Positions 3,580-9,608 of a stretch of 12,888 nucleotides of DNA are shown piece after piece. The DNA lies in the NCBI GenBank assembly GCA_030671465.1, contig DAOVIP010000010.1, positions 1 to 12,888 of the forward strand, in the 5' to 3' direction. A program made the translations under genes and the position numbers. The notes beneath the pieces are model-generated. The model ran no database searches. It worked only from the letters and a program-made list of their open reading frames with translations, and was not told the DNA's origin. The stretch comes from Candidatus Aminicenantota bacterium. GTDB lineage: Bacteria > Acidobacteriota > Aminicenantia > UBA2199. Position 1 is the stretch's first letter. Each line of letters starts with the position of its first letter.

Positions 3580-5124
3580 ATGAAAAACAAGATCAAAGGT
3601 TTGATCAAACTCAGAGAGCAAAAAAATCAAGCCGGAGGGCCGGACAGAATCAAAAAAAGACACCAGCAGGGCAAGATGACTGCCCGGGAGAGAATCGAAT
3701 ACTTTTTTGAACCCGGAACATTTGTCGAACTTCAGGGATACATCAAGCACCATTCCAGTAATTTCGGACTGGACAAAAAAAAATTCTACGGAGACGGGGT
3801 GATAACCGGCTTTGGCAAAGTACATGACCGGACCGTATATGTTTTTTCCCAGGATTTTACCATTCTGGGAGGTTCTCTGGGAGAGATGCATGCCAAGAAA
3901 ATTGTCAATGTCATGGACCTGGCGCTCAAAGCAGGGGCCCCGGTTGTGGGGATCAATGATTCCGGGGGGGCCAGAATTCAGGAGGGGATCAGCAGTTTGG
4001 CCGGATACGGTGACATTTTTTACCGCAATACCATTGCCTCGGGTGTGATCCCCCAGATATCGGTCATCATGGGGCCCTGTGCAGGCGGTGCGGTTTATTC
4101 ACCCGGCCTGACCGATTTTATATTCATGGTGAATCAGGGTACCTTCATGTTTGTCACCGGACCCGAAGTGATCAAAGCCGTAAACAAGGAAGAAGTCAGC
4201 TTCGATGAACTGGGCGGGGCCGAAACCCATTCCAGTCTTTCCGGGGTCTGCCATTTTGTGGGCCTTGATGAAAAAAACACCCTGGACATGGTTAAGGAAC
4301 TGCTCAGTTACCTGCCTCAATCCAATATTGAAGAGCCCCAGCCCGTGGAAACCGATGATCCCTATGACAGAATGGAAGACAAATTGAATGAAATCGTACC
4401 CTCCAATCCCAACAAACCCTACAATATCAAGGAACTCATTACCCTGGTGGTTGATGATTATCGCTTTTTTGAGGTCCATCAAAATTTTTCTCAAAACCTG
4501 ACCGTTGGATTTGCCCGGCTGGGTGGTAAAACAGTGGGCATTATTGCCAACAACCCGGATGTCTATGCCGGCACCCTGGATGTAAATGCCTCTTTGAAAG
4601 GAGCCCGGTTTATCCGTTTTTGCGACGCCTTCAATATTCCACTGGTCAGTTTCGTTGATGTGCCCGGATTCCTGCCCGGCCAGGACCAGGAGAAGATGGG
4701 AATCATCAAGCACGGAGCTAAATTATTATATGCCTATTCGGAAGCCACCGTACCCAAACTAACGGTCATCACCCGTAAAGCCTACGGAGGTGCCTATATT
4801 GTCATGAGTTCAAAGCATCTTGGCGCCGATATCGTTTATGCCTGGCCTACCGCAGAAATTGCTGTGATGGGTCCCCAGGGCGCAATCAATATCATATTCA
4901 AAAAAGACATATCCACCGCTGAACAACCGGAAACATTGAAGGAAAGGCTGATTACCGAATATCGGGAAAAATTTGCCAATCCGGAATTGCCCGCTACCTT
5001 TGGCTACATTGATGACATCATAATGCCCACAGAGACCCGGCCCCTACTGATCAAGGCCCTGGAATCCCTGGAAAACAAGGCCCTGACCAATCCACCCAAA
5101 AAGCATGGCAATATTCCTTTATAG
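3580..5124 (+). CDS. Acyl-CoA carboxylase carboxyltransferase (beta) subunit, PccB/MmdA family
   Basis: At 514 residues it has the usual family length and transfers carboxyl between biotin and an acyl-CoA. It opens with the standard N-terminus (REQKNQAGGPDRIKKRHQQ, then KMTARERIEYFFEPGTF), which supports the ATG at 3580. The N-terminal crotonase-like half has INDSGGARIQEG (around residue 129) and GPCAGGAVYSPG (about 165-176), the CoA-binding oxyanion region. The C-terminal half has VDVPGFLPG, TRKAYGGAY, SSKHLGAD, YAWPTAEIAVMGPQGA and INIIF. Ile407 occupies the position after GGAY that is Asp in propionyl-CoA carboxylases and a nonpolar residue in other family members, so the substrate may not be propionyl-CoA. 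It is the first gene of a cassette with a biotin-carboxylase-like gene 9 bases downstream and a biotin carrier gene after that. It could serve a carboxylase, a decarboxylase or a transcarboxylase; the sequence shows no defect. Confidence 0.95.
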   Translation: MKNKIKGLIKLREQKNQAGGPDRIKKRHQQGKMTARERIEYFFEPGTFVELQGYIKHHSSNFGLDKKKFYGDGVITGFGKVHDRTVYVFSQDFTILGGSLGEMHAKKIVNVMDLALKAGAPVVGINDSGGARIQEGISSLAGYGDIFYRNTIASGVIPQISVIMGPCAGGAVYSPGLTDFIFMVNQGTFMFVTGPEVIKAVNKEEVSFDELGGAETHSSLSGVCHFVGLDEKNTLDMVKELLSYLPQSNIEEPQPVETDDPYDRMEDKLNEIVPSNPNKPYNIKELITLVVDDYRFFEVHQNFSQNLTVGFARLGGKTVGIIANNPDVYAGTLDVNASLKGARFIRFCDAFNIPLVSFVDVPGFLPGQDQEKMGIIKHGAKLLYAYSEATVPKLTVITRKAYGGAYIVMSSKHLGADIVYAWPTAEIAVMGPQGAINIIFKKDISTAEQPETLKERLITEYREKFANPELPATFGYIDDIIMPTETRPLLIKALESLENKALTNPPKKHGNIPL

Positions 5125-5133
5125 GGAACTCAA

Positions 5134-6621
5134 ATGAAAGAAAAGGTGATCATTCCAAACCGGGGGGTTGTGGCCCTGGATATCATTGACTCCCTGAAAA
5201 GTATCGGACTGGAAACCATTCTGTTACATTCCCCCGATGATTCCATGTCCCTGCCGGTAAAACTGGCTGACAAAAGTTTCAAGTTTTTTTCATCCCGGCT
5301 GGAAGACAGCTATATGGACAGGACTGCCATCATTGAAAAAGCCCTGGAATTGAAAGTTCAATACATCCATCCCGGGTATGGTTTCCTGGCCGAAGACCCG
5401 AAATTCGCCAGGATGTGTTCTGACAATAATATAAAATTCATCGGACCAGATGCCCAAGTACTGGAGCGCGTACACAACAAAATCCAGTTGAGAGAAATCG
5501 CCGGTCAGCTCGGGATTAAATATGTAGAACATTCAAAATTAATCAAAAGTCCGCTGGATTTTGAATCCGCTTCGGCCGGATTGAAATTTCCCCTAATTGT
5601 CAAGCCCTTGAAAGGTCTGGGCGGTCACGGGATAAAGATGATCAAAGACAGGTACCGGGACCAGAATCAGATCAAGGAAATGCTCAAACGGGAAACCAAT
5701 CAGCAAAACGGTCTATTCCTGGAAACCTTTCATCCCCATTTCCATCACATTGAAATACCCTTTTTCAGGGATAGTCGGGGAAACATTTTATTTTTGCCCG
5801 AAATCGAATCATCCATCCAGAGAAGGTTTCAGAAAATTCTTGAAGAATCCCCCTCGGTTAATATTTCTGATTTGACCCGTGAGGCTTTGTTCCATGATAC
5901 CCAAAAATTAATCGAAGAAATTGACTACCAGGGCCTGGGTTATGTTGAGTTCCTGGTATCTGAAAACACCCATTATTTTTTCGAAATAAACCCCACTTTT
6001 CAAATCAATACCCTGATCCCGGAGATTCACCTGATTTCCAATTTTATCAAAAAACAATTCGCCATATCCAACAACGAACCATTGCATCAGGTCCGGGGTA
6101 CTGAAATCATCAAGCCCAAATATCATATACTGCTGGTAGCCCTGATGGCAGAAAATCCCTTTGATCAATTTCAGCCCTCTTCCGGTACCGTAACCGAGTT
6201 CTACAATTATTCAACCATCCGCAATATCTTTAAGTCCAGTCTCTTTACCGGAGCCAGAATCTCACACCTCTACGACCCCTACATCGGAAAAATCGTCACT
6301 TTTTCATCCAACCGATCCCGGGCCATCAATGACATGAAAAATTTCCTGAACCACATTTGTATCCGGGGAATCCATACAAATCTGCATTTTCTGAAGAGCC
6401 TGCTGGATAGCGAACCCCTTAGAGAAGCAGAGACCAATATTGATTTTATCTACCGGAAATGGGATTATTCCAGGCGAAAAAAATCAGAAGAGGATATCCT
6501 CAGAGCGGCAGCTTTGCTGGCCTCTGCCTTTCATGTCGAAAACAGAAAGAGAAACTACAAGGCAGAATTGCAGAAAATGAAGCAGCCGGGTTTTTTCAGG
6601 AGACTTTTCCGGAGATTCTGA
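5134..6621 (+). CDS. Biotin carboxylase-like ATP-grasp protein with degenerate active site
   Basis: A 495-residue protein that aligns along its length with AccC: PNRGVVA at the N-terminus, HPGYGFLAEDPKFA, an ATP-grasp core, and a C-terminal cap. Equivalents of AccC K116, K159 (K157 here), E201, H209 (H205), K238 (K234), E276 (E272), E288 (E284) and N290 (N286) are kept. The glycine loop is altered (KPLKGLGGHGI, where AccC has KASGGGGGRGM). Residues for bicarbonate and biotin chemistry are gone: R292 is T288 (EINPTFQIN), E296 is N292, R338 is A336 (HILLVALMAENP, where AccC has HAVECRINAEDP) and H236 is F232 (QRRFQK). The frame is intact, and a basic tail (FFRRLFRRF) extends past the normal AccC end. 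AGGGA precedes the ATG at 5134. ATP binding looks plausible; carboxylation by the standard mechanism does not. It may be a pseudoenzyme, regulatory subunit or enzyme of altered chemistry. Confidence 0.88.
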   Translation: MKEKVIIPNRGVVALDIIDSLKSIGLETILLHSPDDSMSLPVKLADKSFKFFSSRLEDSYMDRTAIIEKALELKVQYIHPGYGFLAEDPKFARMCSDNNIKFIGPDAQVLERVHNKIQLREIAGQLGIKYVEHSKLIKSPLDFESASAGLKFPLIVKPLKGLGGHGIKMIKDRYRDQNQIKEMLKRETNQQNGLFLETFHPHFHHIEIPFFRDSRGNILFLPEIESSIQRRFQKILEESPSVNISDLTREALFHDTQKLIEEIDYQGLGYVEFLVSENTHYFFEINPTFQINTLIPEIHLISNFIKKQFAISNNEPLHQVRGTEIIKPKYHILLVALMAENPFDQFQPSSGTVTEFYNYSTIRNIFKSSLFTGARISHLYDPYIGKIVTFSSNRSRAINDMKNFLNHICIRGIHTNLHFLKSLLDSEPLREAETNIDFIYRKWDYSRRKKSEEDILRAAALLASAFHVENRKRNYKAELQKMKQPGFFRRLFRRF

Positions 6622-6630
6622 GGTGGTAAA

Positions 6631-7146
6631 ATGAAATATAAATTTCAACTGGACAAGAAACTGTTTGAAATCGAAATTGCCTCCAGTTCAACCTTCCATT
6701 CCGAAACCGACCTGAAAATAAACCGGAACAACCATTCGATCATGATCGCTGATCAGGATGATAACGAGATCAAATCATTTTTCCTGGATAATCAACCCTA
6801 TCAGATTGAAATCATAAAGGGTATAGACGGTTATCCCACCGGCATATTTGTTGAAGGTGAGTATTATGCCGCCAAGTTATTGAAAATCGATAAATATTTT
6901 TATTACAATAAAAAATCGCCTGAATCAAAAAAATCAGGCGTTGTGAAAAGCTTCCTTCCGGGTAACATCAAAAAGACATTTTTTAATCTGCATGACCGGG
7001 TGCGGGAGGGCGAGGTGGTGCTCATTCATGCGGCCATGAAAATGGAAAATGAGATTCACAGCCCCAAGACCGGGATCATCAAAATCCTGGGAGTTCAGGA
7101 AGGGGATAACATCCTGGCCAACCATCTTTTATTTGAAGTTGAGTAA
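6631..7146 (+). CDS. Biotin carboxyl carrier protein with N-terminal extension
   Basis: A 171-residue protein. The C-terminal ~70 residues are a biotinyl domain: GVVKSFLPGNIKKTF, then AAMKMENEIHSPKTGIIKI with Lys137 in the AMKMENE biotinylation motif, then VQEGDNILANHLLFEVE. The usual PMPG turn reads FLPG. The first ~90 residues (YKFQLDKKLFEIEI, later YQIEIIKGIDGYPTGIFVEG) look like a beta-rich domain of the kind that precedes the biotinyl domain in propionyl-CoA carboxylase alpha chains, where it contacts the carboxyltransferase. A short Lys/Ser-rich linker (KKSPESKKS) joins the two parts. AGGTGG lies 4 bases upstream of the ATG, and the gene starts 9 bases after the biotin-carboxylase-like gene, so the three are certainly an operon. 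The intact AMKM motif implies that this complex is biotinylated even though the adjacent carboxylase looks inactive. Confidence 0.92.
   Translation: MKYKFQLDKKLFEIEIASSSTFHSETDLKINRNNHSIMIADQDDNEIKSFFLDNQPYQIEIIKGIDGYPTGIFVEGEYYAAKLLKIDKYFYYNKKSPESKKSGVVKSFLPGNIKKTFFNLHDRVREGEVVLIHAAMKMENEIHSPKTGIIKILGVQEGDNILANHLLFEVE
6917..6940. repeat. Short inverted repeat within the biotin carrier gene
   Basis: CGCCTGA (6917-6923) and TCAGGCG (6934-6940) form a perfect 7-bp stem around a 10-base A-rich loop. It lies in the codons for the linker between the two protein domains. It could fold in mRNA, but it has no downstream T-run and is inside a complete reading frame. Confidence 0.4.
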
Positions 7147-7181: not shown

Positions 7182-9608
7182 GTGAAGACGGCTTTAAAAA
7201 TGAAAATGAGTGACCCGGAGCAAGAGCTCAAGTATCTGTCCCGCCTCCCGCTTTTAATCACCTTCTTTTTTATCGGGTTCTATGCCATCATTATCCAAAC
7301 CGTGGTTTTCAGAGAACTTTTGGTGGTAGCACTGGGAAACGAAATCGTTTTCGGCATTTCTCTCTTCAACTGGTTGATCGGGGTCTTTTTCGGGGCCCGG
7401 CTGGGAAGTTTTCGCGTGAAACGGACCACCCGCATGCTAAGGACATTCACATTATCTCTTCTGTTCATGTTGATTTTTTCTCCTCTGGCCACCAGCGGTA
7501 TCCGGCTGCTCTATCATTTGAGCCGGACCCCGGTCGGAAGCCACCTTCACTTCCTCCAGGTATTTTACCTGTCAGCAGCCTGCATCATTCCCCTGAGCTT
7601 TGCCATCGGTTTCACCTTTCCCATCGCCTCTAAATTATACACTTACCGACATAACCGGACCGGGGATAAAGTGACCTTCATTTCAAAAATTTACATCGTT
7701 GAATCCCTGGGTTCCCTGCTTGGAGGCATCGTGGTCAGCTTTATTCTGGTGGAACATTTCAATTCATATACCATTCTGTCAATGGTCTCGTTGCCCCTGA
7801 TGTTCATGCTAGCCTTCCTGACCTTTCGGACCCGGCATATCATTTTGTTTTTGATCATCACAGCCATCGGCCTGGTCGATCTGGTCACCCTGATGCCTGT
7901 AATCAATCGGCAGATTAACCGGATCACCATTCAAAAACGGTGGCAGGGATTTTCTTCCAGTGAGCTGGTCTGGATCCGGGATTCACGTTATCAAAACCTC
8001 ATGCTGGGAAAAATCCATGAACAGTACAACCTGTATTTCAACGGGCAGTTTTCAACCAGCTTCCCGGAACCCACGGACAACCGGATCTTCTCGGCTCATC
8101 TCATTTGCCAGCACCCCGGCCCGAAAAAAATCCTGATCATCGGTGAAGCCATCAGCGGGCTGGCCAGACACCTGCTGGAATACAATATCAATAAACTGAA
8201 ATCCATTGAACTGGATAAGGCTTCCATTGAGGGAATCAAACCATTCCTTCCCCGACCGGATCAATCCATATTTTCTGATCCCCGGTTTTCCATCCAAATC
8301 GGGGATGGCCGGAAGGCCATCAGAGAAAAGAACCCCGAAAATTCAAGCTGGGATATTATTTTCATCAATATAGCCGAGCCCTCAACCCTTTTGTTAAATC
8401 GCTACTACACCCAGGAATTTTTCAGGGATGCCGCAGCCGTCCTGGCCAGAGACGGAATCCTCTGCTTGCGAATCACTTCCTCTGAAAATTACAGTGCCGG
8501 CTTTGTCAGCCAATATACCGCTTCTATTTATCACACCCTGAAGACAGTATTTCCCCGTATTGTCATTGCCCCGGGAGACAAAAATGTTTTTTTTGCCAGC
8601 CAATCCCCGGGCGTAATCACCGGGTCTGCCCGTATTCTGGGGCAACGGTACCGGGAAACCGGTATGCAGCCTGCCCGGTTGGGATTGATTTTTAAATCAT
8701 TGTACCCCCGGGAAAAAACCGATTTCATTTCCCGCTCTCTCGAGATGCAAACCAATCCGGTCATTAACACCGATCAAAAACCCGTCTCTCTCCTGTATTT
8801 CAACAAAATACTGGGCTGGACCAGCAGTGGCCAATCCGGGGTCATCCTCTCCTTTTTTGAGCGGACAAATTTGTTCCGGATCTCGATCATATTATTTGCC
8901 CTTCTCCTGGTCCGCTGGATATTCCTGCTGTTCAGGGCCGTTTATCATTACCTGGCCTCCAAAAAACAGGATTCAACTCCGGGCCTGACCACCCTTTTGA
9001 AAAAATCTTTGCTTGCCCGCTTCAATATCATTTTTGCAGTGGTTGCTACCGGATTCTCCGGCCTATCACTTGAAATCCTGATCATTTACTCATTTCAAAA
9101 CATCTATGGTTATGTCTATCAATTCATTGGATTTATCATTGCTCTTTTCATGACCGGACTGCCGCTGGGAGCCCAGATATCGACAAAATGGATGAATCAA
9201 AAAAAGCGTGACCGTTTTCAGCAATTTGGATGGCTGCTGCTCATTCAAATCTGCTTCATGGCCCTGGCACTGGTTTTCCCGCTTTTATTGAAGATGGTCA
9301 CGGTATTGGGTCTGACCGGGAAAATCTTAATCTGCTGCCTGATCGCCCTGGATGGAGTTCTGGTGGGAGCCCTTTTCCCGGTGGCCCTCCAGGTCTATAT
9401 TCAAAAGAAAGATCAGGCAGCTGTGGCTGCAGGGATCATTGATGCCTCGGATCATCTGGGAGCCGCTATCGGGGCACTTTTTACCGGTGCACTGCTGCTG
9501 CCCATTCTGGGCATTTCCGGAATCAGTAATCTGATTGCCATCATATCGGCTATTTCGGTGACACTCCTGATTCCACATATTGTAATGCCCCGCAGAACGA
9601 TCAATTGA
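7182..9608 (+). CDS. Polytopic membrane protein with embedded spermidine-synthase-like domain
   Basis: 808 residues in three parts. Residues ~22-240 hold about seven hydrophobic segments (LLITFFFIGFYAIIIQTVVF, later FGISLFNWLIGVFFGARLG). Residues ~255-500 are a Rossmann-type aminopropyltransferase-like domain. Residues ~563-800 hold six or seven further segments. In the soluble part the nucleotide loop reads GEAISG (321-326) where spermidine synthases have GGGDGG; ELD (343-345) and GDG (374-376) are kept; but WDIIFINIAEP (390-400) has Asn396 where the catalytic Asp sits. Spermidine synthesis is therefore unlikely. This matches the broad 'fused membrane/spermidine synthase-like' family of unknown function. 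The two membrane halves resemble one another (internal duplication). The start at 7182 is a GTG with GGGG about 11 bases upstream; ATGs at 7200 and 7206 are alternatives. It lies 35 bases after the biotin carrier gene and is probably co-transcribed. Confidence 0.85.
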   Translation: MKTALKMKMSDPEQELKYLSRLPLLITFFFIGFYAIIIQTVVFRELLVVALGNEIVFGISLFNWLIGVFFGARLGSFRVKRTTRMLRTFTLSLLFMLIFSPLATSGIRLLYHLSRTPVGSHLHFLQVFYLSAACIIPLSFAIGFTFPIASKLYTYRHNRTGDKVTFISKIYIVESLGSLLGGIVVSFILVEHFNSYTILSMVSLPLMFMLAFLTFRTRHIILFLIITAIGLVDLVTLMPVINRQINRITIQKRWQGFSSSELVWIRDSRYQNLMLGKIHEQYNLYFNGQFSTSFPEPTDNRIFSAHLICQHPGPKKILIIGEAISGLARHLLEYNINKLKSIELDKASIEGIKPFLPRPDQSIFSDPRFSIQIGDGRKAIREKNPENSSWDIIFINIAEPSTLLLNRYYTQEFFRDAAAVLARDGILCLRITSSENYSAGFVSQYTASIYHTLKTVFPRIVIAPGDKNVFFASQSPGVITGSARILGQRYRETGMQPARLGLIFKSLYPREKTDFISRSLEMQTNPVINTDQKPVSLLYFNKILGWTSSGQSGVILSFFERTNLFRISIILFALLLVRWIFLLFRAVYHYLASKKQDSTPGLTTLLKKSLLARFNIIFAVVATGFSGLSLEILIIYSFQNIYGYVYQFIGFIIALFMTGLPLGAQISTKWMNQKKRDRFQQFGWLLLIQICFMALALVFPLLLKMVTVLGLTGKILICCLIALDGVLVGALFPVALQVYIQKKDQAAVAAGIIDASDHLGAAIGALFTGALLLPILGISGISNLIAIISAISVTLLIPHIVMPRRTIN

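Follow-up and report, generated by a model that had tools for sequence, protein, structure and literature searches.

The window, meaning the whole 12,888-nucleotide stretch of DNA that was analyzed, is contig C447 of a 2.41 Mb genome in 521 contigs, with a stated completeness of 87.97% and contamination of 3.58%. Its close relatives, where named, were mostly labelled Candidatus Aminicenantes or Acidobacteriota, and one was labelled Candidatus Kapabacteria. Three co-directional genes on the plus strand, with a 9-base gap at each junction, encode a carboxyltransferase (CT) subunit, a biotin carboxylase (BC) homologue termed here the pseudo-biotin-carboxylase (pBC), and a biotin carrier protein (BCCP). 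Residues of pBC were referred to E. coli AccC from NC_000913, and its conservation was counted in the best 120 of 5662 relatives (58-96% identity). The features are as follows.

3580..5124, plus strand: CT subunit of PccB/MmdA type, 514 aa (PF01039, 619.3 bits)
5134..6621, plus strand: pBC, 495 aa, open frame, starting 9 bases past the CT stop
5179..5181, plus strand: D16, equivalent to E. coli R16; D in 120/120 (best 120 of 5662)
5833..5835, plus strand: K234, equivalent to E. coli K238; kept in 120/120 (best 120 of 5662)
5947..5991, plus strand: stretch with E272, E284 and N286, equivalent to the Mg/ATP ligands E276, E288 and N290; each in 120/120 (best 120 of 5662)
5995..5997, plus strand: T288, at the position of E. 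coli R292, which is lost (alignment to AccC)
6007..6009, plus strand: N292, at the position of E. coli E296, which is lost; N in 120/120 (best 120 of 5662)
6139..6141, plus strand: A336, at the position of E. coli R338 (biotin site), which is lost; S in 117 and A in 3 (best 120 of 5662)
6232..6234, plus strand: K367, equivalent to E. coli E368; K in 120/120 (best 120 of 5662)
6631..7146, plus strand: BCCP, 171 aa (PF00364, 43.7 bits), starting 9 bases past the pBC stop
7039..7041, plus strand: K137 of the carrier, the expected biotinylated lysine in AMKMEN (from the sequence)

Pfam and NCBIfam concurred on the identities of the three genes as CT, BC homologue and carrier. The CT has a Carboxyl_trans domain with the conserved glycine stretches of both halves (GPCAGGAVYSP and RKAYGGAYIVM), which differ from the canonical CTs compared at single positions only (C/S; A/S; I/C). 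Its best solved relative was 1vrg_A, a propionyl-CoA carboxylase beta subunit, and its match to TIGR01117 mmdA (805 bits) lay below the cut-off of 998.8. Alignment to 1xnw, which we take to be the D422I mutant of PccB, placed an isoleucine at the PccB D422 position. The carrier motif AMKMEN was found in 22/22 aligned family members including the window, in which HAAMKMEN takes the place of the HEAMKMEN found in the other 21. The CT and carrier motifs of the operon are intact, in agreement with the description of an otherwise intact carboxylase operon in the first-pass annotation of this DNA. The operon is followed in the window (7182-9608) by a gene for a protein of 808 aa that combines a spermidine-synthase-like domain with an MFS/SpdSyn-type match, and a relative of this protein occupies the same place in genomes G007, G009, G015 and G128.

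The pBC matched Biotin_carb_N, CPSase_L_D2 and Biotin_carb_C above the Pfam cut-offs and has the BC fold, which places it in the biotin carboxylase superfamily. It shares about 29-34% identity with canonical BCs and scored 290.5 bits against TIGR00514 accC and 309.5 against PRK08591, below the respective cut-offs of 626.5 and 597. Alignment to AccC confirmed the residue correspondences that the first-pass annotation had drawn. H236, R292, E296 and R338 are replaced by F232, T288, N292 and A336, and the AccC identity is retained at K116, K159 (K157 in the window), E201 (E197), H209 (H205), K238 (K234), E276 (E272), E288 (E284) and N290 (N286). Only part of the glycine loop is eroded as had been stated: G162, G164 and R167 are changed to K, L and H, and G163, G165, G166 and G168 are retained. 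Among the best 120 of 5662 relatives, G164 was the most altered loop position (S in 74, L in 19, others), and G163, G165, G166 and G168 were kept in 103, 120, 118 and 112 of the 120.

These residues were compared with those of 222 BCs (P0136-P0240 and P0244-P0360, ranks 16-120 and 4-120 of two match lists), a non-random sample termed canonical by residues and tree position. The quartet at positions 238, 292, 296 and 338 read KRER in 222/222 comparison BCs. Among the best 120 of 5662 pBC relatives it read KTNS in 71, KSNS in 44, KTNA in three, and KCNS and KGNS in one each, so that position 292 held T in 74, S in 44, C and G in one each, and R in none. The absence of R292, E296 and R338 from all of these 120 sequences shows that the residues were not miscalled in the window. 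In the same best 120, K116, K159, E276, E288, N290 and K238 were each kept in 120/120 and E201 in 118/120. The walls of the biotin pocket were also retained (G83 and F84 in 120/120, Y82 in 119/120), as was D382.

R292 and K238 are taken here to be the bicarbonate-binding (clamp) residues of AccC. According to the available part of PMC11077971, the equivalent of E. coli E296 is strictly conserved and likely the general base, and Arg337 and D382 lie at the biotin; Arg337 there probably corresponds to E. coli R338, and the D382 numbering appears equivalent. Compared with a functional BC, pBC lacks R292 and E296 (clamp and general base) and R338 (biotin site), and it has the ATP/Mg residues and K238. 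The bicarbonate/biotin end of the site is eroded and the ATP/Mg end resists.

The divergence extends beyond these positions. Among the comparison BCs, 81 columns are near-invariant, with at least 98% of one residue. In pBC, 50 of them are conserved at 90% or more and 21 are lost, the usual residue surviving in fewer than 10% of sequences. R16, E12, R228, E241, H297 and E336, present in canonical BCs (AccC, PccA, PycA) along with R292, E296 and R338, are also lost from pBC, the window itself having E at 241. Conversely, in 31 columns at least 93% of pBC sequences share one residue that accounts for less than 10% of the comparison BCs, and the G156 or G024 types described below have some of these residues as well. 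Positions 16 and 368, which are R and D/E in 222 and 221 of 222 comparison BCs, are D and K in pBC (120/120 each, best 120 of 5662). This looks like an exchanged charge pair, and D16 and K367 may touch each other. The positions of R19 and E23 are mostly D/N and S in pBC. Both are dimer-interface residues of BC in the available part of PMC5059739, with its numbering taken as equivalent, so the pBC dimer interface has probably been rebuilt. In the structure model of pBC, residues 37-60 fell under pLDDT 50, and the fold comparison barely covers residues after 454.

A class-wide search of 142 genomes (E<=1e-75) found pBC in 25 genomes, all within the 34-genome family of the window (25/34), and in 0/108 others. 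No internal stop interrupted the pBC match in these 25 genomes. In a 26th member of the family, G132, a contig edge leaves only residues 1-163 of pBC, and G016, G131 and G137 carry a CT with 77-83% identity that runs to the contig end. The CT adjoins pBC in 25/25 pBC genomes, window included; in G005, G007 and G139 the contig stops within the CT. On the other side of pBC, a carrier is encoded in 23/25, and in the remaining two, G133 and G141, the contig stops within pBC itself. One of the 108 non-family genomes, G024, has a remote relative (E 1.9e-52, 31% identity). In a 396-genome sample of the phylum (E<=1e-72), no pBC beyond the family was added; the matches were 10 members of family f1 and three at 32-34% identity, of which the one with tabulated residues, G156, keeps R292, E296 and R338. 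Both thresholds miss the remote G024 type, which makes this a weak test of wide spread in the phylum.

Two further types of BC homologue were informative about the origin of pBC. The G156 type comprises 15 proteins (P0121-P0135), and its one observed operon, in L175 (BC at L175:8353-9867), has the same CT-BC-carrier order as the window. Its BC resembles pBC in T291P, in an altered H297 and glycine loop and, by eye, in the C-terminal tail. Unlike pBC, it keeps R292 and E296 in 15/15 and R338 in 14/15, with KRER in 13/15. It has F at position 236 in 11/15, and H at this position is variable in the comparison BCs (84/105 and 91/117, thus 175/222), so that H236F can no longer be counted as part of the loss, as the first-pass annotation had done. 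The G156 type keeps 53 of the 81 near-invariant columns and has lost 15. Since it has lost G164, G168, E241 and H297, the demand for BC activity may have been weak in the entire operon lineage, and these proteins look like a second odd BC subfamily.

The G024 type (three proteins) is more diverged, keeping 34 of the 81 columns and having lost 39. R292, E296 and R338 are absent in 3/3, with N twice and S once at 296, and its ATP site is not untouched, with E at H209 in 3/3 and R at K116 in 1/3. R16, G114, A160, G164, Q213, E241, T274, H297 and D307 are lost in pBC and in both other types, and E12, E188, R228, C230, R292, V295, E296, T300, E336 and R338 are lost in pBC and the G024 type but not in the G156 type. 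K159, E201, E211, Q233, K238, E276, E288 and N290 are kept in all three. As read from its ORFs, the G024 locus (G024:C8, L176:7957-11526) consists of a CT, a very diverged pseudo-BC and a carrier, near genes resembling 2-oxoacid:ferredoxin oxidoreductase.

In a 65-row BC tree, 23 family pBCs formed a group (SH-aLRT 98), and adding the G024 protein gave 24 rows on one side of a branch (99). An 86-row tree placed pBC (99), the G156 type (99) and the G024 type (100) each on one side of a branch, with 47 canonical rows opposite all three (98). The pBC and G024 types again shared one side, with a long-branch warning for the G024 type. A 29-row CT tree joined the CTs of pBC and G024 (99/95) and then that of G156 (100/98), against the other sampled CTs, which adjoin canonical BCs, OAD_beta or a 5S gene; this tree flags G024 (0.54) and G156 (0.53) as long branches, and all trees are unrooted. 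The simplest history would be a single loss of R292, E296 and R338 before the split of G024 and pBC, from a G156-like operon. Canonical operon pairs with 67-73% CT identity showed 60-64% BC identity, and pBC has 28-34% identity to canonical BCs at a CT identity of 56-61%, the BC having diverged much faster than the CT. This speeding-up began before the residue loss, because BC identity to canonical BCs has already fallen to 37-39% in the G156 type, with a CT identity of 58-61%.

In six family pairs (G012 used twice), dN/dS was 0.025-0.234 for pBC and 0.035-0.088 for CT, a range that points to purifying selection on pBC within the family. The 31 pBC-specific columns, the well-supported tree group, these dN/dS values and the conserved operon all agree with the earlier suggestion of selected repurposing in place of decay. 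The clade beside a CT and a carrier that had been proposed as a check was recovered with good support. The T/N/A substitutions it was expected to share are not uniform, with mostly T or S at 292, N at 296 and S or A at 338.

The other carboxylation genes of these genomes bear on the function of pBC. In the source genome, a candidate for the second accC that was to be looked for lies on contig C131, which carries a second CT with a BC that is canonical-like over the 284 residues present, the contig ending before R292. Searches with PF02785 and E. coli AccC found no BC besides pBC in G004, G012, G017, G130, G133, G136, G138 and G141, eight genomes that are 76-93% complete and of which seven belong to one genus. 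PF02785 finds nothing in G133 and G141, whose truncated pBC stops short of that domain. Three partial matches to AccC in G133 and G136 (22-26% identity, E 1e-6 to 1e-8) are probably other ATP-grasp proteins. The same searches gave 50-55% matches to AccC in the controls G006, G015, G129 and G140, only pBC and one weak AccC match in G001 (70% complete), and no BC whatever in G013. The eight genomes had no full-strength accA match, their PF03255 matches sitting on CT genes, and they carry fabD above the cut-off as well as OAD_beta. With fabD present and no other BC found, there are three possibilities: pBC is active, malonyl-CoA is produced by a BC-independent route, or all eight assemblies have missed the gene.

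Possible alternative carboxyl donors are present in the family, with OAD_beta in 27/34 and PYC_OADA in 14/34 genomes. OAD_beta was considered as a predictor of the pBC partner and set aside as showing no clear link, given that 27/34 genomes have OAD_beta but G000, G001 and G005 have pBC without it. No OAD_beta or 5S subunit was found among the six window proteins scanned, and the source genome gave no OAD_beta match and one PYC_OADA match, on another contig. In the control panel, Thermotoga maritima (T. maritima) gave CT, ACCA, OAD_beta, PYC_OADA and fabD matches and none to PF02785. According to the available part of PMC3199775, Actinobacteria, Spirochaetes and Thermotogales are groups in which no BC of the ACC type was found.

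We tentatively favor the reading that pBC is a BC homologue that binds ATP but does not carboxylate, and that it serves as a dock or gate for the biotin carrier in a complex of the transcarboxylase type. The protein would no longer form carboxyphosphate from bicarbonate and would persist as an ATP-binding subunit beside an intact CT and carrier. The CT could load the biotin from one acyl-CoA (e.g., methylmalonyl-CoA), or another carboxyltransferase of the cell could load the carrier, after which the CT would use the carboxyl group to carboxylate acetyl-CoA or propionyl-CoA. Meanwhile, pBC would hold the carrier, and its ATP-driven opening and closing would decide when the carrier swings to the CT. 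From comparisons of this kind we infer the absence of BC activity, the docking or gating role, and the direction and substrates of the complex. In human pyruvate carboxylase, ATP hydrolysis is reported, in the available part of PMC11077971, to help the carrier move from CT to BC, which makes it plausible that ATP could drive docking with no carboxylation taking place.

Several observations favor the transcarboxylase reading. R292, E296 and R338 are lost across the clade. The ATP/Mg residues are retained, in the G024 type too for the most part, and the biotin-pocket walls, CT, carrier motif and operon are conserved. In the eight genomes neither another BC nor accA was found, although fabD and OAD_beta are present. 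Other possible carboxyl donors occur in the family (OAD_beta and PYC_OADA, at the frequencies above), and T. maritima also has fabD and OAD_beta matches with none to PF02785. Against this reading, we know of no transcarboxylase that has a BC-like subunit. The invariant Mg/ATP residues and K238 also exceed what a plain scaffold needs, and the strictly kept ATP site makes real ATP turnover by pBC likely. In addition, the operon encodes no 5S or OAD_beta, the G024 type has lost H209 (3/3) and K116 (1/3), the eight BC-less genomes are incomplete with seven of one genus, and malonyl-CoA could have another source. A wider conception, which we regard as possible though doubtful, is an operon-locked ATP-grasp lineage that has moved past biotin carboxylation, either to a new acyl or phosphoryl transfer or to an ATP-gated carrier in a BC-free acetyl-CoA-to-malonyl-CoA transcarboxylase feeding fatty acid synthesis.

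The strict conservation of K116, K159, E276, E288, N290 and K238 (120/120, best 120 of 5662) would also be expected of an active BC with a remodelled site, in which the invariant R212, K50 and K367 are candidates for binding bicarbonate or the biotin oxyanion and the operon would be an acetyl/propionyl-CoA carboxylase. These new invariant basic residues are present, pBC is the sole BC homologue found in eight genomes with fabD, and the isoleucine of the CT at the PccB D422 position is compatible with acetyl-CoA, on the role we presume for that position. Nevertheless, R292, E296 and R338 occur together in 222/222 comparison BCs, and E296 is the strictly conserved, likely general base (PMC11077971, available part), which leaves an active BC unlikely.

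The survival of most phosphoryl-transfer residues, even in the strongly diverged G024 type, and the 31 pBC-fixed columns that are rare in comparison BCs, as a new substrate pocket would give, are consistent with a different ATP-grasp chemistry. Such an enzyme would phosphorylate another acid or hydroxyl and transfer the group to the biotin carrier or a small molecule. Here it counts against the proposal that no extra operon enzyme hints at a substrate, that CT and carrier are ordinary, and that some of the 31 changes also occur in the G156 type, where the catalytic residues are retained. Loss of the arginine of the E-x-N-x-R motif, as seen in pBC, is unusual for acyl-phosphate chemistry. We judge this explanation to be improbable, to the same degree as an active BC.

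If pBC were purely structural or regulatory, the carrier could be carboxylated in trans by the canonical BC of the cell. A canonical BC is indeed also present in many family genomes, such as G006, G015, G129 and G140, and the source genome has the second CT with its contig-cut BC on C131. The operon is nevertheless found in eight genomes where no canonical BC was found, and the chance that all eight assemblies are missing a BC would be about 1e-7 (the product of 1 minus the stated completeness, which assumes an independence not fully met by related MAGs). Carboxylation in trans is quite unlikely. That the gene is decaying, or that its residues are sequencing errors, is hardly credible and was ruled out by losses shared in 120/120 database clusters (best 120 of 5662), by the low dN/dS and by the absence of stops inside the match in 25 genomes, even though the dN/dS of pBC exceeds that of the CT in 5/6 pairs.

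Comparison with known systems helps to place the transcarboxylase reading. Methylmalonyl-CoA decarboxylase and transcarboxylase work without a BC. MmdA and the 12S-1.3S-5S transcarboxylase share the CT family with the window (the sub-cut-off TIGR01117 match) and a biotin carrier. Unlike the window, they are not known to have a BC-like subunit, and the window operon is without a 5S or Na+ pump subunit. A canonical operon of the same family (L082, L083) has the same CT-BC-carrier order and a CT 59% identical to that of the window, but its BC is 32% identical to pBC and has R292, E296 and R338. The available part of PMC3199775 describes the BC domain as limited to carboxylases, very well conserved, and the main feature separating biotin carboxylases from decarboxylases and transcarboxylases. 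No description of a BC homologue without R292, E296 and R338 was apparent among the open-access titles and abstract openings listed. The pseudo-BC clade is a new combination of a known fold and a known operon type.

By dropping the bicarbonate chemistry and keeping the ATP site, the pBC group pulls apart two functions of BC, ATP binding and carboxylation, and with the G156 type intact at R292, E296 and R338 and the G024 type and pBC not, an evolutionary series is available. The probable activity of the complex is to transfer carboxyl groups from one molecule to another and not to fix new ones. This raises the question of the source of malonyl-CoA in bacteria that have fabD but no recognizable active BC.

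Other carboxyltransferase clusters were observed in the family. L080:217-4484 (G000:C499) and L171:573-4846 (G001:C156) contain accD, a ParB_N-like small ORF, accA and a gene for a protein of 661/662 aa that has HMGL-like and PYC_OADA domains and ends in a biotinyl domain, and PF02785 had no match on these two contigs. The cluster has the look of a route to malonyl-CoA by way of an oxaloacetate:acetyl-CoA transcarboxylase. G018:C179 (L166:4203-9221) and G012:C16 (L164:3830-8070) carry a PYC_OADA and CT pair next to a Na:alanine symporter gene, and a cluster of CT, biotinyl and OAD_beta genes. Finally, the large genomes G004, G008, G018 and G127 (5.7-10.4 Mb) each gave 31-43 fabD-type acyltransferase matches, many in very long frames, which suggests a rich polyketide synthase content.
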